This document shows positions 19,458 to 40,589 of a stretch of DNA of 40,636 nucleotides, piece after piece. Source of the stretch: Pseudomonadota bacterium (GTDB lineage: Bacteria > Pseudomonadota > Gammaproteobacteria > Ga0077536); the NCBI GenBank assembly GCA_029977665.1, contig JAPOKK010000004.1, positions 1-40,636 of the forward strand, read 5' to 3'. Within the stretch, counting starts at the first letter, position 1; each line of letters opens with the position of its first letter. The translations under genes and the position numbers were made by a program. The notes under the pieces are model-generated. The model worked only from the letters and a program-made list of their open reading frames with translations, was not told the DNA's origin and made no database searches.

Positions 19458-20252
19458 TCAGTCTCCGGGATTCCAGGCCGCGGGGCGCTTCTCGGCAAAA
19501 CTGGCGAGCCCTTCGGCGGCCTCCGCGCTTTGCCGCTTGGCAGCGTGCTCGGCAACGAGGCGTTCGAACACCGCATCGTTGACCAGGGCGCCGGCAACCT
19601 GCATCGCGCTGCGCTTGCTGAGCGCGATGGCATCCGGCGCGACGGCAAGCAGTGCGTCGATGACCGACGCGGCGGCGGTATCGAGGCCGCCCGGCTCGCA
19701 CACGTCGTGGACCAGGCCGATGGCTCGCGCGGTCACCGCATCGAAGCGCTCGCAGGTCAGCGCGTAACGCCTGACGTTGCGGATGCCGATGGCGGCGACG
19801 AGCTGCGGAAAGATGATCGTCGCCGCCATGCCCCAGCGCGCCTCGCTGACGGCGAAACTCGCGGTGCGCTCGGCGATCACGACGTCGCAGGAACTCGCGA
19901 GCCCCGTACCGCCGCCGACACAGGCACCGTGGACGAGGGCGATGGTCGGCTTGGGCAGCTGATTGAGTGCGCGCATCGCCTCGGCGGTCAGGCGCGAGGC
20001 AGCGAGATTGGCGGCGGTATCGCGCGCCGCGACCTCACGCAGCCAGGTAAGGTCCGCGCCGGCCTGGAAGTGCGGCCCGTTGCCCCGTACCACGAGCACG
20101 CGCACGGCGTTCTCGACCGCGAGCTTGCGAACCGTCGCGAGCAGGGCCGCGAGCAGGGCCTCGTCGTAGGCGTTGTTGACCGTCGGGCGGTTCAGGGTGA
20201 CGGTCGCGACGCCGCGTGCGTCGAGATCGCACAACACCTCCGCTTCCTTCAT
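19458..20252 (-). CDS. Enoyl-CoA hydratase/isomerase family protein
   Basis: The 264-aa crotonase-fold protein has VATVTLNRPTVNNAYDEALL at the N-terminus, the oxyanion-hole strand HFQAGADLTWL, KPTIALVHGACVGGGTGLASSCDVVIAE (second oxyanion Gly), FAVSEARWGM with the Glu position of hydratases, and the C-terminal helices. It acts on a CoA thioester in the cytoplasm. Methylglutaconyl- and isohexenylglutaconyl-CoA hydratases share the ADLTWL start, but this is not enough for assignment. It overlaps the TetR gene upstream by four bases (ATGA), so it is the second gene of a repressor-hydratase unit. It probably takes part in the same pathway as the divergent carboxylase-like genes. Confidence 0.9.
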   Translation of the reverse strand: MKEAEVLCDLDARGVATVTLNRPTVNNAYDEALLAALLATVRKLAVENAVRVLVVRGNGPHFQAGADLTWLREVAARDTAANLAASRLTAEAMRALNQLPKPTIALVHGACVGGGTGLASSCDVVIAERTASFAVSEARWGMAATIIFPQLVAAIGIRNVRRYALTCERFDAVTARAIGLVHDVCEPGGLDTAAASVIDALLAVAPDAIALSKRSAMQVAGALVNDAVFERLVAEHAAKRQSAEAAEGLASFAEKRPAAWNPGD

Positions 20253-20923
20253 GCTCGGCTTCCCCTGCGTGGCGATTCGTCTTGCGGACCGCAGATGGCT
20301 TGAAAGCCGGCGGCCAGGAACGGCAGCATGCGGGCGTGGATCGTGGCCAGGTCGCTGCTCGCGCAGCGCCCGCCAGAGAGCACGTCGATGCGGCCGGTCT
20401 CGGCAAATGTAATCGTCATTGCGCCGATCAGGAAGTGGAAGCCCCAGTAGATGTCCTCCTCGCGCGCCTGCGGCAGGCTTTCGCGCACACGCGCCAGGAA
20501 CGCCTGCGCGACGGGGTCGAAGTAGGCCGTCATCAGCGCGCTCGTCCAGCGCTGCGAGTTGGCCACCTGCGCGATGACCCGCGCGTAGGCCTTCCAGCCG
20601 GGGCCGCCGCTCAGGCTGCGCGAGAGAAACGGGCCGCTGAAGGCTTCGATGACCTGTTCGAGCGGCGCGTCGGCGGGCAATGCCTCGAGCGCGGCCAGGC
20701 GCGCACCGTTGAGATCGCTCGCGCGGCGCTCGACGACGGCGCGGAAGAGTTCGAGCTTGGGTCCGAAATGGTAGTTCGCGAGGGCCAGCTCGACACCCGC
20801 CCGGCGCGTGATCATGCGCAGCGACACGGCGTCGTAGCTGGCCTCGGCGAACAACTGCTCGGCGGCATCGAGAATGCGTTCGCGGGTCGGCACGGTGCTG
20901 GCGGCGGCGGGGACGGACGGCAT
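20249..20923 (-). CDS. TetR/AcrR family transcriptional regulator
   Basis: The 224-aa protein has a clear N-terminal TetR helix-turn-helix (residues ~13-60: RERILDAAEQLFAEASYDAVSLRMITRRAGVELALANYHFG). The ALANYHFG end is typical of regulators like PsrA. The rest forms the ligand-binding domain; GGPGWKAYARVIAQVANSQRW and the helical PVAQAFLARVRESLP are PsrA-like. It is transcribed away from the hyuA-like gene and overlaps the hydratase gene. An 18-bp palindrome 31 bp upstream of its ATG is the obvious operator. Effector unknown; PsrA-type proteins bind fatty acyl compounds, so an acyl-CoA or acid of the pathway is a reasonable guess. Start ATG at 20923. Confidence 0.92.
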   Translation of the reverse strand: MPSVPAAASTVPTRERILDAAEQLFAEASYDAVSLRMITRRAGVELALANYHFGPKLELFRAVVERRASDLNGARLAALEALPADAPLEQVIEAFSGPFLSRSLSGGPGWKAYARVIAQVANSQRWTSALMTAYFDPVAQAFLARVRESLPQAREEDIYWGFHFLIGAMTITFAETGRIDVLSGGRCASSDLATIHARMLPFLAAGFQAICGPQDESPRRGSRA

Positions 20924-20942: not shown

Positions 20943-20971
20943 TTGGATTAATTTTTGAACGATCGTTCAAA
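20943..20971 (+). promoter_or_regulatory. Divergent promoter region with an 18-bp palindromic operator
   Basis: TTTGAACGATCGTTCAAA at 20954-20971 is a perfect 18-bp palindrome in the only AT-rich patch of the neighbourhood. On the plus strand it overlaps a candidate promoter, TTGGAT at 20943-20948, 17 bp, then TTCAAA at 20966-20971. On the minus strand TTGAAC starts a candidate -35, with TCCAAT 17 bp further. A repressor bound here would block both directions. The half-sites GAAC-N4-GTTC resemble the GAAAC-N4-GTTTC type reported for PsrA. Predicted, not shown. Confidence 0.75.
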
Positions 20972-21024: not shown

Positions 21025-23130
21025 TTGAGCTCTTATCTTTGCGGCCTGGACATCGGCGGCACGTTCACCGATTGCGTGCTGATCGACGACGCCGGCCATC
21101 TCACCATCGCCAAGGCTCCGTCGACGCCGGGCAACTTCGCTGCCGGCGTGATCGAGGCGATCGAGCGCGCCGCGAGCAAGGTCGGCTTGCCGATGAGCGA
21201 CCTGCTCGCCTCGATCAGCGTGCTCGCGCACGGCACCACTGTGGGCACCAACACCATCATCCAGCGCCGCGGCGCCAAGGTCGGGCTCATCACCACCAAG
21301 GGCCATAACGACGTCATCCACATCATGCGTGGCTCGCGCGGGCTGTCGGGCCAGGACATCAAGCTTATCGTGCACATCCCGGAGAGCCGCAAACCCGAGC
21401 CGCTGATCCCCAAGCGCCTCGTGCGCGGCGTGTCCGAGCGTGTCGACTGCTTCGGCAAGGTCGTCGTGCCGCTCAACGAGGACGAGGCGCGCCAGGCGAT
21501 CATCGAACTGCGCGACGCCGGCTGCGAAGCGCTCGCCATCTGCACCTTGTGGTCGTTCCTGGAACCCGCCCACGAGCAGCGCATCAAGCAGCTCGCCGAA
21601 GAACTCGCGCCCGACCTGTACGTGACCTGTTCCTCGGAACTCGCGCCGAAATGGGGCGAGTACGAGCGCACCACCGCGGTCGCGCTGAACGCCTACATCG
21701 GCCCCGTGACGGTCGGTTACGTGACCCGTCTCGACACACAGCTGAAGGAAATGGGTTACAAACCGCCGCTGCAGATCACGCAGTGCGCGGGCGGCACCAT
21801 CACCGTGCCCAAGGCGCAGGCGGCGCCGCTGCTGACACTCGACTCCGGCCCCGTCGCCGGTGTCACCGGCTCGGTCTACCTCGGCGGCCTGATGGGCCAC
21901 CGCAACGTCATCACCACCGACCTCGGCGGTACCTCCTTCGACGTCGGCGTGATCCATGACGGCCTGCCGGTCGTCTCCTACAAGAGCCTGGTCAACCAGT
22001 ACGAGTATTTCCTGCCCAAGGTCGATGTGCAGACGCTCGGCACCGGCGGCGGCTCCAAGGTCTGGATCGACACCACGACGAAGAGCCTGCGCGTCGGGCC
22101 CGATTCGGCCGGCGCCGACCCCGGCCCCGTCTGTTACGGCAAGGGCGGCGAGGTACCGACGACCACCGACGCCGACCTTGTGCTCGGCTATCTCGATGCG
22201 GACAACTTCGCCGGCGGCACCATGACGCTCGACCGCGACGCTGCCGCGGCCGCCTTGCAGAAGCTCGCAGACGAACTCGGCATGGATCTCTACGAGCTCG
22301 CCAGCGGTGTCGCCACCATCGCCGAGTTCCAGATGGCCGATCTCATCCGCAAGGTCACGGTACAGAAAGGGCTGGACCCGCGCGAATTCGTGGTCTTCGC
22401 GTTCGGCGGCGCCGGCCCCGTGCACATGGGCGTCGCCGCGCGCGAGCTCGGCGTCGCCAAGGTCATCGTGCCGCAAGGCGATACCGCGGCCGTGTGGTGC
22501 GCCTTCGGCGCCGCCTCGGCGGACATCCTGCACGTCGACGAACAGGTCGCGATCCAGGCCTCGCCGTTCGATCTCACGCAGGTCAACGCGATCCTCGCCG
22601 ACCTCGGAGAAAAGGGCCGTCAGCACCTGCTCGACGACGGCGTCGACGCCGCGCGCCACGTCTTCCGCTACTCCATCGACATGCGCCACCGCGGCCAGAT
22701 CAACGAGGTCGAGGTCGACCTCGACGACGGCCATCTCGACGACGCCGCACTCGAAGAGCTGCGCGAACGCTTCGTCGCACGCTACGAGCGGCTCTACGGC
22801 CGGGGCGCGGCCCTGCGCGGTGCGCGCCTGGAAATGGTCACGTTCCGCTGCCGCTCCTCGGCGGTCTCGCGCAAGCCGACCCTGGTCGCGGCCGACACGC
22901 TGAGCGACGTCATCGCGCCCGACGCGCAGACCGGTACGCGCGAGATCTGGTGGGCCGAACAGCGTGCCCTGACCCCGACGCCGATCTACGATGGCTACAA
23001 GCTCGTGCCCGGCAATCGCCTCGACGGCCCCTGCGTGGTGGAGACCACCACGACCTCGATGGTCGTCCATCCCGGCCAGCGCATCGAAGTCGACGCGCTC
23101 GGCAACTTCGTCATCGACCCCAACGCCTGA
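21025..23130 (+). CDS. HyuA-like / acetone-carboxylase beta-like ATP-dependent subunit
   Basis: The 701-aa protein is a hydantoinase A/oxoprolinase family member with an ASKHA-type ATP-binding fold: CGLDIGGTFTDCVLIDD at residues 6-22 (phosphate 1 loop), AHGTTVGTNTI, and VITTDLGGTSFDVGV in the second half. The blocks SRGLSGQDIKLIVHIPESRKPEPLIPKRLVRG and WGEYERTTAVALNAYIGPV resemble the beta subunits of acetone/acetophenone carboxylases. These phosphorylate the ketone enolate and bicarbonate. Start is TTG at 21025, chosen because GGGGAGGA lies six bases upstream and the family begins there. It is followed by the alpha-like gene after eleven bases. Ketone carboxylase versus cyclic amide hydrolase cannot be settled from this subunit alone. 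Confidence 0.85.
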   Translation: MSSYLCGLDIGGTFTDCVLIDDAGHLTIAKAPSTPGNFAAGVIEAIERAASKVGLPMSDLLASISVLAHGTTVGTNTIIQRRGAKVGLITTKGHNDVIHIMRGSRGLSGQDIKLIVHIPESRKPEPLIPKRLVRGVSERVDCFGKVVVPLNEDEARQAIIELRDAGCEALAICTLWSFLEPAHEQRIKQLAEELAPDLYVTCSSELAPKWGEYERTTAVALNAYIGPVTVGYVTRLDTQLKEMGYKPPLQITQCAGGTITVPKAQAAPLLTLDSGPVAGVTGSVYLGGLMGHRNVITTDLGGTSFDVGVIHDGLPVVSYKSLVNQYEYFLPKVDVQTLGTGGGSKVWIDTTTKSLRVGPDSAGADPGPVCYGKGGEVPTTTDADLVLGYLDADNFAGGTMTLDRDAAAAALQKLADELGMDLYELASGVATIAEFQMADLIRKVTVQKGLDPREFVVFAFGGAGPVHMGVAARELGVAKVIVPQGDTAAVWCAFGAASADILHVDEQVAIQASPFDLTQVNAILADLGEKGRQHLLDDGVDAARHVFRYSIDMRHRGQINEVEVDLDDGHLDDAALEELRERFVARYERLYGRGAALRGARLEMVTFRCRSSAVSRKPTLVAADTLSDVIAPDAQTGTREIWWAEQRALTPTPIYDGYKLVPGNRLDGPCVVETTTTSMVVHPGQRIEVDALGNFVIDPNA

Positions 23131-23141: not shown

Positions 23142-25424
23142 ATGCCACGTATCAGCGAACTGACCGACGTCGACTTCAACGGTATCGAGAATCCCTACGT
23201 ACCGCCGAAACAGCTGCGCATCAGCGACAAGCTCAGGCTGCATCGCGATTTCGACGCCGATGTCGATCCGGTCACCTACGAAGTCATCCGCCACAACCTG
23301 TGGCAGATCAACGAAGAGCACGGCGCCACCATCCAGCGTCTTTCGGGCTCACCGGTGGCGATGTACGCGCTCGATCTCAATCCCTCGATCCTGACCGAGG
23401 ACGCCGAGTTCGTCTATTTCGGACCGTACATGCAGTACATGTCCGGCGTCACCGACACGCAGGTCAAGTGGACGCTCGAGTTCCGCTCCGACAATCCCGG
23501 CATCAACGAGGGCGACATGTTCATCGCCAACGATCCCTGGGTCGGCGCCGCACACCAGCAGGACGTCATGCTGCTGTGCCCGGTGTTCTGGGAAGGCGAG
23601 CTGTTCTGCTGGGTGACCAACTGCCTGCACCAGTACGACATCGGCGGCATCACGCCCGGCAGCTTCTGCCCCTCGGCGGAATCGGCCTACGAGGAAGGCA
23701 TCATGCTGCCGCCGCTGAAGATCATCGAGAACTACGAGATCCGCAAGGACATCGAGGCGGTCTACCTGCGCGCATCGCGCAAGCCGCAGCTCGTCGCGCT
23801 CGATTTCCGTGCCCAGGTCGCCGGCAACACCACCGCGCGCGAGCGCGTGATCGAGTTGATCAAGCGCTACGGGGCTAAGGCCGTCAAGGGCGTCATGAAG
23901 CGCATCATCGACAACTCCGAGAAGTCCTACCTCGAGAAAATGGCGCGGCTGCCGGACGGCGAATGGTTCGACCGCACCTACATCGAAGCCTGCCGGCCGG
24001 GTGACCGGCGCACGCACCGCGTCGTGCTCGGGCTGCGCAAGGAAGGCAACAAGCTGATCTTTACCAATGACGGCTCGGCCGGGCAGGAAGGCGCGATGAA
24101 CGCGACCTACTCGGGCTGGCGCGGGTCGATCATGGTCGCCATCAACGAGCTGCTGTGCTGGGACCAGTACTTCGCCTGCGGCGGCGCGCTGCGCCACGTC
24201 GAATTCGACCCCACCCCCGGCACGCTGAACTGCGCCGATTTTCCGGCCTCGGTCTCCACCGCCCCTATCCAATCGATGGAGATCTCGCTCTACCCGGCCT
24301 ACAACGTCATCTCGAAGATGATCTACCCGGATGCCGAGATGCGCCGCGACATCATGTGTATCGGCGGCACCAGCCAGTGGCCGGCAACGCTGTTCCGCGG
24401 CGAGGACCAGTGGGGCGAGCGCTACGGCTACCTGCTCGTCGATCCGATCGGCGGTGCCATCGGTGCGTTCTCCATGGCCGACGGCATCAACACCGGCGGC
24501 CAGTCGCGCACGCCGATCTGTCAGCTGCCGAACATCGAGCACACCGAGCAGAGCTTCCCGGTACTGTTCCTCTACCGCAAGGAGCTGCCCGACTCCGGCG
24601 GCGCCGGCCGTTACCGCGGCGGACTGTCGGCCGAATCGTGCTTCATCCCGCACAATACCGAGGCAATCACCCAGGACACGCTGTCCTCGGGCAACGCGAC
24701 GCCGACCTCGGCCGGTATGATGGGCGGCTATCCCTCGACCACCAACGCTTACGCGTTCGTACGCAACAGCAACGTGTTCGAACGCTTCGGTGCCGGCGAC
24801 ATGCCGGAAGATATCGGCGAGGTCACCGGCGACGAGGTCACGCTGCAGCTGCGCGAAGAGAACTTCCTGCAATACCCGGCCGACGTGTACGCCGTCCGCT
24901 GGACCGGCGGCGGCGGCTTCGGCGACCCGTTCGATCGCGACCCGGCCGACATCGAGCAGGACCTCGAGGATTTCGCCGTCACACCGGAAGCAGCGCGGGC
25001 GATCTACGGCGCGGTGCTCACCGCCGACGGCAAGGTCGACGTCGAAGCGACGCTGGCCGAGCGCGAGCAGATCCGCCGTCAGCGCGTCAACGGCGGTGCA
25101 CCCGCGCCGCGCGACGGCCAGCTCGTCTACCAGGCGGCGGCCAATCTCGACGTGCGCGCCGACGCCACCGGCCAGTACTGGGCCTGTGGCAAGTGCGCCG
25201 CCGATCTCGGCCCGACCACGACGAACTACAAGGAGGCATGCATCCGCGAGGACCGGCCGGTGTCGGACTCGAACCCGCTGATCGGCGATCCGGCCCGTTT
25301 CATTGACGACGACGTCGCCTTCCGGCAATTCTACTGCCGCGGATGCGGCACCCTGATCGACAACGAAATCGCCGTCACGCGGGACGAGCCCCTGCACGAC
25401 TTCCGCTTGCCGGCGTCGGCCTGA
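23142..25424 (+). CDS. HyuB-like / acetone-carboxylase alpha-like subunit fused to a gamma-like zinc domain
   Basis: The 760-aa protein has the HyuB fold (residues ~40-660) with DPVTYEVIRHNLWQINEEHG at the start and the NDPWVGAAHQQD block, where H138, D141 and, 25 residues after H138, H163 (LHQYD) form an H-x2-D...H set. This matches what I recall of the Mn site of acetone carboxylase alpha. The tail, residues ~680-760, is distinct: C682-x2-C685 (WACGKCAADLG), then C732-x2-C735 (FYCRGCGTLID), ending DEPLHDFRLP. That resembles the small gamma (zinc) subunit of acetone carboxylase, here fused. Start is ATG after AGGAGG. It probably works with the upstream subunit in ATP-dependent carboxylation of a ketone; substrate unknown. 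Confidence 0.82.
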   Translation: MPRISELTDVDFNGIENPYVPPKQLRISDKLRLHRDFDADVDPVTYEVIRHNLWQINEEHGATIQRLSGSPVAMYALDLNPSILTEDAEFVYFGPYMQYMSGVTDTQVKWTLEFRSDNPGINEGDMFIANDPWVGAAHQQDVMLLCPVFWEGELFCWVTNCLHQYDIGGITPGSFCPSAESAYEEGIMLPPLKIIENYEIRKDIEAVYLRASRKPQLVALDFRAQVAGNTTARERVIELIKRYGAKAVKGVMKRIIDNSEKSYLEKMARLPDGEWFDRTYIEACRPGDRRTHRVVLGLRKEGNKLIFTNDGSAGQEGAMNATYSGWRGSIMVAINELLCWDQYFACGGALRHVEFDPTPGTLNCADFPASVSTAPIQSMEISLYPAYNVISKMIYPDAEMRRDIMCIGGTSQWPATLFRGEDQWGERYGYLLVDPIGGAIGAFSMADGINTGGQSRTPICQLPNIEHTEQSFPVLFLYRKELPDSGGAGRYRGGLSAESCFIPHNTEAITQDTLSSGNATPTSAGMMGGYPSTTNAYAFVRNSNVFERFGAGDMPEDIGEVTGDEVTLQLREENFLQYPADVYAVRWTGGGGFGDPFDRDPADIEQDLEDFAVTPEAARAIYGAVLTADGKVDVEATLAEREQIRRQRVNGGAPAPRDGQLVYQAAANLDVRADATGQYWACGKCAADLGPTTTNYKEACIREDRPVSDSNPLIGDPARFIDDDVAFRQFYCRGCGTLIDNEIAVTRDEPLHDFRLPASA

Positions 25425-34179: not shown

Positions 34180-35988
34180 TCAGGCAGGCGTCGCGCGCGT
34201 CTCCTCGCGCAGCTTCGCGGTCGCGGCCTGGTCGACCGTCATCGTCTGTTCGTCGATGACGACCCCGTAGTGGCGCTTCGCGGCTGCCGCGGAGATGTAC
34301 TCGTCGAGCACGTCGTCGAGCACTTCCTCCACGTTGCGCTCGAGCGGGTTGCCCCAGCCACCGCCGCCGGTCGACTCGAACATGAACGTCTCACCGTAGC
34401 GGAACGGCACGCTGGCGAGCAGCGGGCTCTTCCAGTTACCGGCCTCGTCGAGTCCGCCGATGACCTCGCGGCGGCCGTCGGTATGCAGCTTGATCTGGCG
34501 CTGCACGTCAGAGCGCTGGCCGCCGTTGACGCCGGGGCTGCCTTCGAACGTGCGCGCCGACTCCATGCTGAGCTCGCCGTCGGCCAGGTAGCGGACCTTG
34601 AAGATGGCGCCGAGGCCACCGCGATGCCGCCCCGGACCGCCGCTGTCGGTGCGCAGTTCGAAAGCCTCGTAGGCAATCGGGAACAACAGTTCAGCGGTCT
34701 CGGCCGGCATGTTCATGCAATTGCCGAGCGGATCCTCGGTGACGTTCATGCCGTCGGCATAAGGAGTGCCGCCCCAACCGCCCGCGGGCAGATCGGAGAA
34801 GACATCGGTCGAGCCGTCGGGCGCGATGACCGAAGAAACGAACCAGTTGCACTCCGCGTTCGTCGACCCGGTAACCTTCTCCGGGCAGGCCTTGGCCAGC
34901 GCCTGCCAGATCGCGCTGGTGATCTTGCACGAGGTGAGCGTGGTGCAGCCGATGGTCGGTGCCGGCCACTTCGCGTTCAGCCAGCAGTCGTCCGGCAGCT
35001 TGATGGTAATCGGCTCGAACATGCCCTGGTTCTGCGGCGCGTAAGGGGCGAGGAAGAACTGCAGCGAATAGAGCGTCGCGGACGCCGTGTTGGCGTAGGG
35101 CGAATTGATCGCGCCCTTGACCATCGGTCCCGTGCCCTCGAAGTCGACCGTGATGTCCGAGCCCTTGATGATCAGCTTGACCTTGATCGGAATGGGCTTG
35201 TCGGAATGGCCGTCGGTATCGGCGTAGTCTTCGGCTTCGTACACGCCGTCCGGCATCTCGGCGATGCTCTTGCGCACGATGCGCTCGGTGTACTCCTGCA
35301 GCTGCTTCATCGCTGCGCGCAGCGTCGCCGCGCCGTACTTCTCTGCCGCGCGTTCCATCTCCTGCTGCGCGGCTTTCAGGCAGCCTACGTGGGCCTGCAG
35401 GTCACCTTTCACGAAGTGCGGCGTGCGCGTGTTGTTGACGATGATGGCGAGCAGGTCTTCGCGCACCTGGCCCTGCTCGTAGAGCTTGAGCGGCGGCAGG
35501 CGCAGACCTTCGCCCGCGATGTGCGTGCCACCGAAAGCCTGGCCGCCGGCCGCGCCGCCGCCGAGGTCCATCCAGTGGCCGCGGCTGACCGCGAAACCGA
35601 GGATGTCACCGTCGAAGAAAATCGGCATCAGGAACGTGATGTCGTTGATGTGCGTGCCGCCCTGGTAGGGATCGTTGACGACGTAGACGTCGCCCGGCTG
35701 CATCTGCTCGCGCGGGTAACGCGCGATGATGGCCTCGGCGCTGAATTTCATCGCGGCGAGGTGAATCGGGCAGTTGGCGGCCTGCGACAACAGCTTGGCC
35801 TCGCTGTCGTAGATCGCGTTCGAGAAATCGACCATGTCGGCCAGGATCGGCGAGAACGAGGCGCGCTGGAGCACCGTCGACATGCGGTCGGCTGCGTACT
35901 CGAAGATGCTGCGCAACACCTCGAAGGTTACCGGGTCGACGCGGGTCTGCTCGATGACCGAGGCGTCCACTTTCACTTTCTTGTCCAT
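34180..35988 (-). CDS. hyuB: N-methylhydantoinase B / oxoprolinase-family subunit (HyuB)
   Basis: From the ATG at 35988 the protein has 602 aa (MDKKVKVDASVI). AGGAG precedes it by about eight bases, which decides against the longer frame that overlaps hyuA. HyuB signatures: DPVTFEVLRSIFEYAADRMSTVLQRASFS, NDPYQGGTHINDITFLMP with H113 and D116, and SRGHWMDLGGG with H138, 25 residues after H113. The C-terminal half has STGGGGWGNPLERN. It lacks the CxxC tail of the other HyuB-like protein in the window. The enzyme with HyuA hydrolyses cyclic amides such as N-methylhydantoin using ATP. Third gene of a minus-strand operon with hyuA and the dehydrogenase. Confidence 0.9.
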   Translation of the reverse strand: MDKKVKVDASVIEQTRVDPVTFEVLRSIFEYAADRMSTVLQRASFSPILADMVDFSNAIYDSEAKLLSQAANCPIHLAAMKFSAEAIIARYPREQMQPGDVYVVNDPYQGGTHINDITFLMPIFFDGDILGFAVSRGHWMDLGGGAAGGQAFGGTHIAGEGLRLPPLKLYEQGQVREDLLAIIVNNTRTPHFVKGDLQAHVGCLKAAQQEMERAAEKYGAATLRAAMKQLQEYTERIVRKSIAEMPDGVYEAEDYADTDGHSDKPIPIKVKLIIKGSDITVDFEGTGPMVKGAINSPYANTASATLYSLQFFLAPYAPQNQGMFEPITIKLPDDCWLNAKWPAPTIGCTTLTSCKITSAIWQALAKACPEKVTGSTNAECNWFVSSVIAPDGSTDVFSDLPAGGWGGTPYADGMNVTEDPLGNCMNMPAETAELLFPIAYEAFELRTDSGGPGRHRGGLGAIFKVRYLADGELSMESARTFEGSPGVNGGQRSDVQRQIKLHTDGRREVIGGLDEAGNWKSPLLASVPFRYGETFMFESTGGGGWGNPLERNVEEVLDDVLDEYISAAAAKRHYGVVIDEQTMTVDQAATAKLREETRATPA

Positions 35989-36052
35989 GGCTCTGCTCCT
36001 TCGGGCCGCTGGCCCGCTCAGGCGGTGTGGTGGCGATGGGTGGGCGATGCCT

Positions 36053-38074
36053 TCAAACGAGGTCAATCAGCATGTTGCCATATTGGTCGACCTTACCACG
36101 GGCATTCGGCGGAAGCACCGCGCAGGCGTGCTCGAACTCGACGATACACGGCCCCGCCACGGTGGCGTCGGCGACGAGCGCGTGCCCGTCGTAGATGTTG
36201 CTTTCGTGCCACGCGCCGTCGAACCAGACCTGCCGCGTACCCTTGAGCGGCTCGCGACCGCTGGCATCGACCGTCAGCGCCGGCGGGCGCGCGGTACGTC
36301 CGACCGCGGTGACGGAGAGCGAGACGATGGCCGGCGCGAAGTCGTCGGAGCTGACGCCGAACTCCATCTCGTGGCACTTGTGGAAGGTCTCGGCGATCTT
36401 CGGCAGGTCGGCCGCGGTCAGCTTGCCGCCCGGAATCGGCGTCTCGACCTCGTAGCTCTGGCCGACGTAGCGCATCTGCGCCGAGCGCGTCACGGTGACA
36501 TCGGCGGCCTTGACGCCGTCGGCCTCGAGCAGCGCCACGGCGTCGCGCTCGAGCACCGCGTAGAGCGAGTTGATGGCCTCGACGTCGGCATCACCGACGG
36601 CGCAGAAGTAGAACGCTTCGAGATCCTGGCGCAGGTCCATCGCGGTGGCGCCGAAAGCCGAAGCGACACCGGCCTGGGCCGGCACGATGATGCGCGGGAT
36701 GTTCATCGACTCGGCAACGAAGCAGGCATGCATCGCGCCGGCGCCGCCGAACGCGGCGTAGACGAAGTCGCGCGGGTCGCGGCCGCGCCCGACCAGCACC
36801 TTCTTGACCGCCTGTGCCATGTTCTCGCAGCCGATGCGGATCATGCCTTCCGCGGTTTCGATGGCCGACAGGCCGAAGGTCTCCGCGAGGCGCTCCATGG
36901 ACTGCTCGGCGGCGTCGCGGTCGAGCTGCATCTTGCCGCCGAGCGAGGGCTCGATGCGGCCGAGCAGCAGGTTGGCATCGGTGATGGTCGGCTCGGTGCC
37001 GCCGAGGCCGTAGCACACCGGCCCCGGGCTCGAGCCGGCCGACTGCGGGCCGACACGCAGGCTGCCGCCCTCGTCGACCCAGCCGATCGAGCCGCCGCCG
37101 GCGCCGACGGAATGGATGTCGAGCATCGGCACGATGACCGGGATCTCCCACTCGATCTCGTGATCGCGCGTGACCAGGCCCTTGCCGTTCTCGACGATGG
37201 AGACGTCGAAGCTGGTGCCGCCGACGTCGGTGTGGATGATGTTGGGGCAATCACCGCGCAGTTCGTTGAGATAGGCGGCATAAGCCACGCCGCCCGCCGG
37301 GCCGGATTCGATCAGCTCCTCGGGATGCTGGATCGCCGCTTCGACGCCGGTGATGCCGCCGCTCGATTTCAGGATCATCAGGCGGCCGGCGAAACCGGCT
37401 TCCTTCAGGCTCGCCTCGAGCCGGCTGAAGTAACGCTCCATGACCGGCATCGTCGCGGCCCGAATCGCGGTTGTGGTGAAGCGGCCGTGCTCGCGGAATA
37501 CCGGGCGGGTATCAGCCGAGGTCACGCAGTAGATGCCGGGATTGACCTCGAGCACGATGTCGCGCATCGCGTTCTCGTGGGCCGGGTTGACGTAGGCGTT
37601 GATGAAGGCAATCGCGACCGACTGGATGCCATGCGCCTTGATCTTCTCGGCGATGGCGCGCGCGTGGCCGGGATCGAGCGGGCGTACCACCTCGCCCTTG
37701 ACGTCCATGCGCTCGTCGATGCTGTAGCGGTAACGGCGCTTGATGATGGGCTTGGGCTTGGTCTGGTACGGATCGTAGAGCTGGGCGCGGTGCTGGCGGC
37801 CGATCTCGATGGTGTAGCGAAAACCCTCGGTCGTGATCATCGCCGCTTCCGGGTAATCGCGCGTGATCAAGGCATTCGTTGCGGTCGTCGTGCCGTGCAT
37901 GAGGTAGGCCACGTCGCGCGCTTCGATGCCGGCCTCGGCGAGCGCGTTCATCACGCCGCGCGAGCGGTCGTCCTTGGTCGTGAGGACCTTGGCGGTGACC
38001 TCGCGGTTATTGCCTTCCTGCCAGGCATAGAGGTCGGTAAAGGTTCCGCCTACGTCGATTCCTACGCGCCACAT
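36053..38074 (-). CDS. hyuA: N-methylhydantoinase A / oxoprolinase-family ATPase subunit (HyuA)
   Basis: The 673-aa protein has the HyuA ASKHA-type fold: MWRVGIDVGGTFTDLYAW at the N-terminus, YLMHGTTTATNALI, NIIHTDVGGTSFDVSI in the middle and VGAGGGSIGWVDEGG. The family uses ATP to activate a cyclic amide or carboxyl substrate; HyuA supplies the nucleotide site and HyuB the metal site. It starts at ATG 38074 with GGGGGA at -12 to -7. The hyuB start is 64 bp downstream of its stop and the dehydrogenase stop 61 bp upstream, so a three-gene operon is likely. N-methylhydantoin is the best-known substrate; other lactams, such as 5-oxoproline, are possible. Confidence 0.92.
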   Translation of the reverse strand: MWRVGIDVGGTFTDLYAWQEGNNREVTAKVLTTKDDRSRGVMNALAEAGIEARDVAYLMHGTTTATNALITRDYPEAAMITTEGFRYTIEIGRQHRAQLYDPYQTKPKPIIKRRYRYSIDERMDVKGEVVRPLDPGHARAIAEKIKAHGIQSVAIAFINAYVNPAHENAMRDIVLEVNPGIYCVTSADTRPVFREHGRFTTTAIRAATMPVMERYFSRLEASLKEAGFAGRLMILKSSGGITGVEAAIQHPEELIESGPAGGVAYAAYLNELRGDCPNIIHTDVGGTSFDVSIVENGKGLVTRDHEIEWEIPVIVPMLDIHSVGAGGGSIGWVDEGGSLRVGPQSAGSSPGPVCYGLGGTEPTITDANLLLGRIEPSLGGKMQLDRDAAEQSMERLAETFGLSAIETAEGMIRIGCENMAQAVKKVLVGRGRDPRDFVYAAFGGAGAMHACFVAESMNIPRIIVPAQAGVASAFGATAMDLRQDLEAFYFCAVGDADVEAINSLYAVLERDAVALLEADGVKAADVTVTRSAQMRYVGQSYEVETPIPGGKLTAADLPKIAETFHKCHEMEFGVSSDDFAPAIVSLSVTAVGRTARPPALTVDASGREPLKGTRQVWFDGAWHESNIYDGHALVADATVAGPCIVEFEHACAVLPPNARGKVDQYGNMLIDLV

Positions 38075-38135: not shown

Positions 38136-40589
38136 TCAACCGCGCATGCGCTCGGCCTTGGGATCGTACAGGGGCGCGAGCGACGCGCGCGCCCCGTAAA
38201 CCCGGTCGGCCTGCTCGATACGGTAGCTGCCGCTCGTGACCCAGTCGCTGCTGACCCCCTCTTCGCACTGCACGTAGCCTAGCGCGCAGGCCGCGCCGAG
38301 TGTGTGTGCATAGCCCGCCGAGGTGGTGTAGCCGACGCGTGCGCCGTCGCGCAGTATGGGCTCGTTGTGGGTCAGCACGGGCTCCGCATCGTCGAGCAGG
38401 AACTGCACCAGGCGGCGTTTCGGCAGCCCGGCCTCGCGCTGCTCGAGCAGGGCCTCGCGGCCGATGAAGCCGCCGGCCTTGTCCCATGCACAGGTGAAGC
38501 CGAGACCGGCTTCGAGCAGGCTGTCGCAGGGGCCCATGTCGTGCGCCCACTCGCGGAACGCCTTCTCCACGCGCAGCGTGTTGAGCGTGTGGTAGCCGCA
38601 GTGCCGCAGACCGTAGTCAGCGCCGGCGGCGATGAGCTTGTCGTACACGGCAAGCGCCATCTCGCTCGGCACGTAGAGTTCCCAGCCGAGTTCGCCGGTG
38701 TAGGACATGCGCAGCGCGAGCGCCTGCTGGTAACCCACTTCGATCGGCTGCAAGGTCCCGAACGGGAACGCCGCGGTGGAGAAATCGGCCGAAGAGATCG
38801 CGCCGAGCAGCTCGCGCGAGCGCGGCCCCTGCACGTTCAGCATGCACCAGGCGCCGGTGACGTCGGTAACCACGCAGCAGGCGTCTTCGGGCACGTTCTC
38901 ACGGATCCAGGCATCGACGTGGGTGGTCGTGAACGCCGGCGTCACGACCAGGTAGCGGTCTTCAGCGAGGCGCGTGATGGTGAGATCGGCTTCGACGCCA
39001 CCCCGCACGTTGAGAAACTGGGTGTAGACCGCGCGACCGATCGCGACGTCCATTTCGGCCGTCGCGAGGCGATTGAGCACGCGCGTCGCGTCACGGCCCT
39101 GCACCAGCAGCTTGGTGAACGAGCTCTGCTCGAACACGCCCACCTGTTCGCGCACGGCGCGGTGTTCGGCGGCGTTGTTGGCGAACCAGTTCTGCCGGCC
39201 GAAGCTGTATTCGTAGCGCGCCTCCTGCCCGGGTTCCGCGTACCAGTTGGCGCGCTCCCAGCCGGCCGACTCGCCGAAACAGGCGCCGGCCGCGGCGATG
39301 CGTTCGTGCAGGACCGACCGGCGCATGCCGCGTGCGGTTTCCCACTGCCGGTTCGGCCAGTGCATCTGGTAGGCAATCCCGAGCGACTCCACGCCGCGAT
39401 CGACGACGTAGGCGGCATTGTTCTGCACCGGCTGCAGGCGACGGATGTCGACGTCCCACACGTCCATCGGCTGCACGCCGTCGTTGATCCACTGCGCCAT
39501 GACATGCCCGGCGCCGCCGCCCGAGAGGATGCCGAGGGAATTGAAGCCGCAGGACACGAACAGGTTCTTCACGTAGGGCGCGCGACCCATCAGGTAATTG
39601 TGATCGGGCGTGAACGACTCCGGGCCGCAGAAGAACTGGCGGATACCCGATTCCATCAGCACCGGCATGCGCTGCATGCCGCGCTCGATCCACGGCTCCA
39701 TGCGCTCCCAGTCCGGCTGGATTTCGTCGAAGCAGAAATTCTCCGGGATGCCGTCCACGCCCCATGGCGCGGCGACGGGCTCGAAGAATCCGAGCATGAT
39801 CTTGCCGGCCTCCTCGCGGATGTAGGCGCTGCGGCCGGGATCGCGCAGAATCGGCAGCTTGTTGTGCACGCCTTCGATCGATTCAGAGATCAGGTAGTAA
39901 TGCTCCATCGCCTGCAGCGGGATATCGACGCCGATGCGGCGGCCGAACTCGCGCCCCCACATGCCGGGGCATAGCACGACGACGTCGGAGCGGATGTCGC
40001 CCGCCGCGGTGCGCACGCCGACCGCGCGTCCCTGCTCGATGATCACGTCATCGACCGCGGTATTCTCGAACATGCTCACGCCGCGCTGCCGCGCGCCCTT
40101 CGCGAGCGCCATCGTCACGTCGGCCGGGTTGACGCGGCCGTCGTTCGGGAAGTAGAAGCCGCCGACGAGATCGTCGACGTAGGCGAGCGGGAAGAGTTCC
40201 TTGATCTCGCTCGGCGTCACCGCGTGGTTCTCGACCCCGAAGGTGCGTGCCATCGCGCAGCCGCGCAGCATCTCCTCGCGCTTGTGCTCGTCCATCGCGA
40301 GCTGGATCGAGCCGCAGCGGATGAAGCCGGTGGCCTGGCCGGTCTCCTCCTCGAGTTCCTGGTAGAGCCGCAGCGAGTAATGCGCGAGTTCCGTCTGCGC
40401 CTCGGTATCGCGCAGCGTGGTGATGAGTCCGGCCGCGTGCCAGGTGGTGCCGCAGGTGAGTTGTTTGCGCTCGAGCAGGACGACGTCGGTCCACCCGAGC
40501 CGCGCCAGGTGATAGGCGATGGAGCAGCCGATGATGCCGCCGCCGACGATGACGGCGCGGGCGTGGGTGGGCAGCTTCGCTTCGCTCAT
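38136..40589 (-). CDS. FAD-dependent dimethylglycine/sarcosine dehydrogenase-like protein (DAO plus GcvT domains)
   Basis: The 817-aa protein oxidatively demethylates an N-methyl amino acid, passing the C1 unit to a folate. The N-terminal FAD domain has AVIVGGGIIGCSIAYHLA (GxGxxG at ~16-21), E40, and the covalent-flavin His region GTTWHAAGL with H51. SGGGAGHVMAQWI lies near the end of the DAO part (residues ~350-370). From ~430 the GcvT/T-protein domain follows (VFEQSSFTKLLVQG, VQGPRSRELL, SYTGELGWELYVPSEMALAVYDKL). Length matches the family (about 810-860 aa). It is the first gene of the hyuA-hyuB operon. ATG at 40589 with AAGGGG upstream. Substrate (dimethylglycine or sarcosine) is inferred. 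Confidence 0.91.
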   Translation of the reverse strand: MSEAKLPTHARAVIVGGGIIGCSIAYHLARLGWTDVVLLERKQLTCGTTWHAAGLITTLRDTEAQTELAHYSLRLYQELEEETGQATGFIRCGSIQLAMDEHKREEMLRGCAMARTFGVENHAVTPSEIKELFPLAYVDDLVGGFYFPNDGRVNPADVTMALAKGARQRGVSMFENTAVDDVIIEQGRAVGVRTAAGDIRSDVVVLCPGMWGREFGRRIGVDIPLQAMEHYYLISESIEGVHNKLPILRDPGRSAYIREEAGKIMLGFFEPVAAPWGVDGIPENFCFDEIQPDWERMEPWIERGMQRMPVLMESGIRQFFCGPESFTPDHNYLMGRAPYVKNLFVSCGFNSLGILSGGGAGHVMAQWINDGVQPMDVWDVDIRRLQPVQNNAAYVVDRGVESLGIAYQMHWPNRQWETARGMRRSVLHERIAAAGACFGESAGWERANWYAEPGQEARYEYSFGRQNWFANNAAEHRAVREQVGVFEQSSFTKLLVQGRDATRVLNRLATAEMDVAIGRAVYTQFLNVRGGVEADLTITRLAEDRYLVVTPAFTTTHVDAWIRENVPEDACCVVTDVTGAWCMLNVQGPRSRELLGAISSADFSTAAFPFGTLQPIEVGYQQALALRMSYTGELGWELYVPSEMALAVYDKLIAAGADYGLRHCGYHTLNTLRVEKAFREWAHDMGPCDSLLEAGLGFTCAWDKAGGFIGREALLEQREAGLPKRRLVQFLLDDAEPVLTHNEPILRDGARVGYTTSAGYAHTLGAACALGYVQCEEGVSSDWVTSGSYRIEQADRVYGARASLAPLYDPKAERMRG

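Follow-up and report, generated by a model that had tools for sequence, protein, structure and literature searches.

Our results indicate that the window, the whole stretch of 40,636 nucleotides analysed here, carries a two-gene unit in which a HyuA-type ATPase subunit is followed by one protein that joins a HyuB-type metal-binding domain to an acetone-carboxylase gamma domain (A-Bgamma). Judged from its sequence, this pair probably forms a ketone carboxylase of two parts, or else an enzyme closely related to such carboxylases. The fused architecture is distinct, yet it is widespread and public records already contain it, and in the HyuB tree it lies outside both the acetone (Acx) and the acetophenone (Apc) carboxylases.

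Results

The fused protein and its gamma domain

A HyuB-type domain and a gamma-type zinc domain on one protein had been proposed in the initial annotation, and Pfam, a PDB sequence search and Foldseek all bear this out. The fused open reading frame (Table 1) begins at ATG 23142, with an AAGGAGG ribosome site in front, 11 bp after the HyuA stop. In Pfam, Hydantoinase_B covers residues 42-596 (E 7e-98) and Acetone_carb_G (PF08882) residues 673-755, the latter scoring 31 bits (E 3e-7) where the gathering score is 21. NCBIfam weakly assigns the body to acetophenone carboxylase delta and the tail to the Apc small subunit, both far under the equivalog cut-offs.

Table 1. Features of the window discussed in the text.
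Feature	Position	Strand	Remarks
Enoyl-CoA hydratase/isomerase-family protein	19458..20252	-	Next to tetR; near the A-Bgamma pair in 14 loci
TetR_C_30 (PsrA-like) regulator, divergent	20249..20923	-	Kept beside the A-Bgamma pair in 13-16 loci
Perfect 18-bp palindrome	20954..20971		TTTGAACGATCGTTCAAA; probable operator for the TetR-type gene
HyuA-type ATPase subunit	21025..23130	+	Best start TTG 21025, preceded by GGGGAGGAA; Hydant_A_N, Hydantoinase_A, Hydant_A_C
Fused HyuB-gamma protein, 760 aa	23142..25424	+	Hydantoinase_B 42-596, helix 634-649, short linker, Acetone_carb_G 673-755
Metal-ligand tetrad, coding stretch	23373..23630	+	D78, H138, D141, H163; alignment to Apc-beta D65/H123/D126/H148
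Gamma domain, residues 673-755	25158..25406	+	PF08882; 5l9w_C match; Zn cysteines C682, C685, C732, C735
Second, gamma-less HyuA/HyuB pair	34180-38074 and 38136-40589	-	Beside a DAO/GCV_T dehydrogenase of sarcosine/dimethylglycine type

When residues 653-760 alone were compared with PDB sequences, the Apc small subunit 5l9w_C was found at E 9e-7; no other PDB match of the tail alone was significant, the next ones being unrelated proteins at E 0.27 or worse. For the body, the PDB sequence search found Apc-delta. An AF2 model of the fused protein, built from 38 homologues with six rows from plasmid records left out, had a mean pLDDT of 79.9 and a pTM of 0.85, the gamma region lying mostly at 78-93 per ten-residue block. 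Foldseek matched the body of this model to 5l9w_A, to acetone carboxylase A chains (5m45_A among them) and to N-methylhydantoinase and caprolactamase CapB chains (6yra_B among them), and the tail, separately from the body, to 5svc_C and 5m45_C (acetone carboxylase gamma) and 5l9w_C (Apc small chain). Both Pfam domains were matched in all 38 aligned fused homologues. The C-terminal tail is thus a genuine acetone-carboxylase gamma domain, and the gamma likeness expected in the initial annotation is seen in the PF08882 score, above its cut-off, in the weak NCBIfam match and in 5l9w_C. The low pairwise identity to 5l9w_C (about 26% over the Foldseek alignment) would suit an unrelated zinc ribbon that resembles gamma by chance, a reading that we reject as extremely improbable given that the gathering score is passed in the window and in genomes of its own family, that every aligned homologue matches the profile, that carboxylase gamma chains rank first for the tail in both the PDB search and Foldseek, and that the adjacent haloarchaeal gene in the same place is annotated as gamma.

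Metal ligands and zinc cysteines

Alignment to 5l9w_A and the published ligand list (PMC5214803) placed D78, H138, D141 and H163 on the Apc-beta ligands given in Table 1, of which H123, D126 and H148 make up the mercury site of 5L9W. The tetrad corresponds to the Asp/Glu-His-Asp-His metal site of the hydantoinase/ketone-carboxylase superfamily; H138, D141 and H163 had been correctly named earlier, and D78 is the fourth ligand, missing from that account. The CxxC...CxxC described for the C-terminus is present as C682xxC685 and C732xxC735, the four cysteines of Acetone_carb_G that are predicted to bind Zn. The four metal ligands and the four cysteines are invariant in the 38 fused homologues (alignment A2). 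At the position of D78, Glu occurs in 6/6 Acx-type proteins, and the gamma cysteines follow the pattern CxxC...CxxC in fused and Apc-type proteins and CxC...CxxC in Acx-type proteins (Cys74, 76, 124 and 127 in Acx gamma; PMC5543143). A separate case is a fused HyuB-gamma protein on the Rhodococcus opacus plasmid pCP105 (L116, 7992-10301), where three of the four Zn cysteines are lost, TKTA and CPIS replacing CxxC; the gamma fold may be kept there without Zn.

The HyuA partner and the gene neighbourhood

In the window, HyuA carries the ASKHA motifs DIGGTFTD, DLGGTSFD and GADPGP together with ERVDCFG, the interface motif of Apc-alpha. In 62/62 HyuA partners we found the two phosphate motifs, the adenosine motif and the ERxDxxG interface motif, which is present in Apc-alpha and absent from Apc-alpha' (PMC5214803). 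The best NCBIfam model for HyuA is that of caprolactamase alpha (572 bits, under the cut-off of 1000). A HyuA gene precedes the fused gene in 65 loci (the upstream HyuA cluster), most other loci being cut by a contig end, so that the proposed two-gene unit with a beta-like ATPase subunit holds at the gene level. The operon combines a HyuA-type ASKHA ATPase with a HyuB-type subunit, as is characteristic of the superfamily, and the two genes would specify a two-polypeptide complex.

The sequence TTTGAAC-N4-GTTCAAA lies upstream of hyuA in most of the TetR-bearing relatives checked, with its arms kept and its spacer varying; the conserved arms suggest an autoregulated, ligand-induced hyuA operon. 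An enoyl-CoA hydratase/isomerase gene follows tetR in many gammaproteobacterial loci. The superfamily of this enzyme includes beta-ketoacyl-CoA hydrolases. An enzyme of beta-ketoacyl-CoA hydrolase type acts downstream of an unrelated ketone carboxylation (PMC9618137) and, by analogy, one might speculate that the enoyl-CoA hydratase-family neighbour acts after carboxylation.

The neighbours of the fused pair are HIBADH-like, TctC, LysR and CoxL/CoxM genes in betaproteobacteria and a class III aminotransferase gene in alphaproteobacteria; neither these nor the amidase genes point to ketones in particular. CoxM/CoxL-type molybdenum hydroxylase genes flank the pair at several betaproteobacterial loci (L075, L083, L086, L089, L091, L099 and L100), a hint of N-heterocycle substrates. 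Within the clade of the window (about 80 loci, some of them too short to show such neighbours), a ligase was found in 5, a dehydrogenase (SDR or Zn-ADH) in 7 and a thiolase in 1; genes for molybdenum hydroxylases, amidases, aminotransferases and HIBADH-like proteins occur at least as often. No single answer as to the substrate was found from the gene neighbourhood across the fused-pair loci. Among distant relatives, the fused gene of R. opacus lies beside SDRs and an acyl-CoA ligase, that of Natrinema caseinilyticum beside a 2,3-butanediol dehydrogenase, an AMP-binding enzyme and a CoA-transferase, the split genes of Haloterrigena beside an acetoacetate decarboxylase family protein and an AMP-binding enzyme, and those of Haladaptatus beside a 2,3-butanediol dehydrogenase. 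These actinobacterial and haloarchaeal neighbourhoods would fit a route from alcohol to ketone, beta-keto acid and CoA ester.

Distribution of the fused form

Among 35 other genomes of the window's family, at least 27 have the fused form, counted as an open frame of about 750 aa or longer with PF08882 at its end. PF08882 had no match in other families of the same class (0/22 genomes), and a phylum-wide draw of 150 genomes contained the fused form in the window's own genome only; the form is thus frequent within its family and scattered outside it. Scanning GTDB contigs yielded 80 loci at 61-98% identity, titled as gamma-, alpha-, beta- and deltaproteobacteria and SAR324; 79 of them are fused through to gamma and the 80th runs off its contig inside the gene, which rules out an assembly artefact or a frameshift joining two genes. 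Four contigs titled 'MAG: Klebsiella pneumoniae' (L037, L040, L051, L072) carry the gene at 69-85% identity, and their species label looks wrong. Fused relatives at 28-36% identity occur on plasmids of Mycobacterium branderi, Rhodococcus opacus, R. pseudokoreensis, Halorientalis, Natrinema caseinilyticum and Niveispirillum. The fusion is not singular, being present in these family genomes, in about 80 contigs and in some actinobacteria and haloarchaea. Public records annotate the product only as 'hydantoinase B/oxoprolinase family protein', and a literature search, whose limited coverage does not prove absence, found no description of a HyuB-gamma fusion.

The closest split relatives are encoded on haloarchaeal plasmids (L113, L114, L119, L120, L125), where the B and gamma genes adjoin or overlap and fall inside fused lineages of the tree; these may possibly have arisen by natural gene fission.

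Several architectures stand side by side in genomes of the family: A-Bgamma (fused), A-B-gamma (Acx), A'-gamma-A-B (Apc), B-gamma-A, and A-B without gamma. Besides the fused pair on this contig, the window's genome contains an Acx-type B-gamma (C292), an Apc-type A'-gamma-A on a contig that stops inside the next B gene (C373), and several gamma-less HyuB genes. Another genome of the family (G009; L149, L152-L154, L156-L160, L163-L165) has 14 PF08882 matches in operons of Acx, Apc, B-gamma-A and fused type, which suggests an unusually rich ketone-carboxylase repertoire. The gamma-less pair of the window, with its neighbouring dehydrogenase, looks as would be expected for N-methylhydantoin or creatinine breakdown.

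Position in the HyuB and HyuA trees

In careful HyuB trees, Acx and Apc each form a monophyletic group, and a branch with 100/99 support separates the two together from all others, namely the fused lineages, the split forms of haloarchaea and the gamma-less enzymes (hydantoinases, oxoprolinases and caprolactamase). The gamma-less enzymes are nested beside one set of fused proteins (98/97), and there are deep branches inside the fused set. A HyuA tree, in quick mode, recovered Acx, Apc and hydantoinases as one group each, with weaker support within the fused set. A clade of fused proteins alone was rejected by the AU test (p 5e-56), the haloarchaeal split forms lying inside it. With the haloarchaeal split forms added to the fused proteins, the clade was not rejected (p 0.21), and the nesting of hydantoinases within the fused set is therefore suggestive only. 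The tree and the AU tests together imply that fusion or fission took place more than once, and that the fused lineage did not arise from within Acx or Apc.

Gene content, metal ligand and tree rule out that the fused protein is itself a member of either group. The initial annotation had spoken of a distinct architecture in the acetone/acetophenone carboxylase group: the architecture is indeed distinct, and the 100/99 branch sets it apart from that group. The related idea that it simplifies the usual three-subunit complex, that is, a late fusion from an Acx-like ancestor, finds no support in the tree. Being outside Acx and Apc, on the side of the gamma-less hydantoinases, the fused protein represents a lineage between the two kinds and not a simplified acetone carboxylase.

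Discussion

Comparison with characterised systems

Both parts of the fused protein have their nearest solved relatives in Apc (ApcABCDE of Aromatoleum aromaticum, 5L9W), in the delta chain for residues 36-643 and the small chain for 673-743, and the D-H-D-H metal site and the CxxC...CxxC gamma are common to both. Apc, however, has alpha and alpha' kinases, a separate gamma, the order A'-gamma-A-B and often an epsilon subunit, whereas the fused system has one kinase and a fused gamma, is without alpha' or epsilon, and occupies its own branch of the HyuB tree. Acx (AcxABC of Xanthobacter autotrophicus, 5SVB/5SVC/5M45) resembles it in having one kinase, one metal subunit and one gamma, in the order A, B, gamma. 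It differs in its metal ligand, a Glu (XaAC Glu89) in place of Asp78, and in its gamma, which has CxC...CxxC and a longer N-terminus and is encoded by a separate gene after acxB instead of forming a domain; the fused HyuB also falls outside the Acx branch.

Hydantoinases, CapAB and 5-oxoprolinases (6YRA, 9H03) share with the fused system the two-gene A-B unit, the Asp in the metal tetrad and the same side of the tree, and its HyuA scores best against CapA. Their HyuB, of about 580-630 aa, is without gamma or a zinc tail, and two genes with gamma present as a domain depart from the hydantoinase/lactamase pattern of two genes and no gamma. The HyuA-HyuB-gamma operons of Haloterrigena, Natronosalvus and Haladaptatus, about 41-44% identical to the window protein, have the same gene order and differ in having B and gamma on two genes that adjoin or overlap.

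Proposed reaction

Ketone carboxylation is our best guess because of the usual company of gamma and of the gene context in distant relatives. Gamma is known biochemically only from ketone carboxylases, hydantoinases being without it (PMC5214803). HyuA would phosphorylate the carbonyl substrate at its ASKHA ATP site, and the phosphorylated intermediate would move to the second subunit, whose HyuB part contains the D-H-D-H metal site; there the intermediate would most likely react with activated bicarbonate and yield a beta-keto acid. A structural Zn would be bound by the CxxC...CxxC of gamma, and the domain would lie against the HyuB core in the manner of Apc. We infer the (A-Bgamma)2 assembly, the Apc-like docking of gamma, the binding of Zn and the carboxylation reaction. 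As the best explanation, this mechanism is held with restrained confidence, a little better than even. It is weakened because the HyuB tree groups the fused forms with hydantoinases and not with Acx or Apc, and because few loci of the window's own clade have ligase, dehydrogenase or thiolase neighbours. Two published points also count against it: no sequence signature is known that divides carboxylases from hydrolases (PMC5214803), and the role of gamma in known carboxylases is unclear (PMC5543143).

A substantial, though clearly less probable, alternative is that the pair is an ATP-dependent cyclic-amide hydrolase (hydantoinase, lactamase or oxoprolinase-like) in which gamma is an inherited structural module with no role in carboxylation. 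Gamma-less hydantoinases, oxoprolinases and CapB do nest among the fused lineages, caprolactamase alpha is the top NCBIfam model of HyuA, and the CoxL/CoxM-type hydroxylases, amidases and FAD enzymes near beta- and gammaproteobacterial loci suit N-heterocycle breakdown. Gamma is, however, missing from every hydantoinase and lactamase of the family that has been characterised (PMC5214803), the invariance of the four Zn cysteines in 38 fused proteins indicates a gamma domain under constraint, and the distant fused and haloarchaeal split relatives lie amid ketone and CoA genes. It is unlikely, although the neighbourhoods differ by lineage (TetR and enoyl-CoA hydratase; HIBADH/TctC/LysR/CoxLM; class III aminotransferase) and deep branches run within the fused set, that the same scaffold performs some other ATP-dependent activation, such as carboxylation of a thioester or another carbon acid, or that the fused group comprises several activities; direct evidence for this is lacking, and the identity of 61-98% over the whole length within the proteobacterial clade argues for one reaction there. 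Ketone carboxylation by A-Bgamma is thus the reading that we prefer.

Implications for the family

As a passage of PMC4959651 puts it, citing Schuhle and Heider 2012, the gamma gene serves to tell acetone carboxylases from hydantoinases. A search for a stand-alone gamma gene alone misses the fused proteins, and since records list these under 'hydantoinase B/oxoprolinase family protein', candidate biotin-free, CO2-fixing carboxylases may hide in many genomes. The crystal-structure papers leave the role of gamma open, and a one-chain Bgamma would offer a clean test of it, because trimming the domain or mutating its cysteines causes no loss of a subunit by dissociation. The fused branch sits where hydrolase and carboxylase lineages meet. 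A tentative and rather doubtful extension is that the fused A-Bgamma form is a fourth branch of the family linking hydantoinases and ketone carboxylases, in which hydantoinases and oxoprolinases would have lost gamma, or the gamma of Acx and Apc would have split off a fused ancestor. If this were true, the fused enzyme would be the missing middle of the family, showing what gamma does and how hydrolases and carboxylases interconvert.
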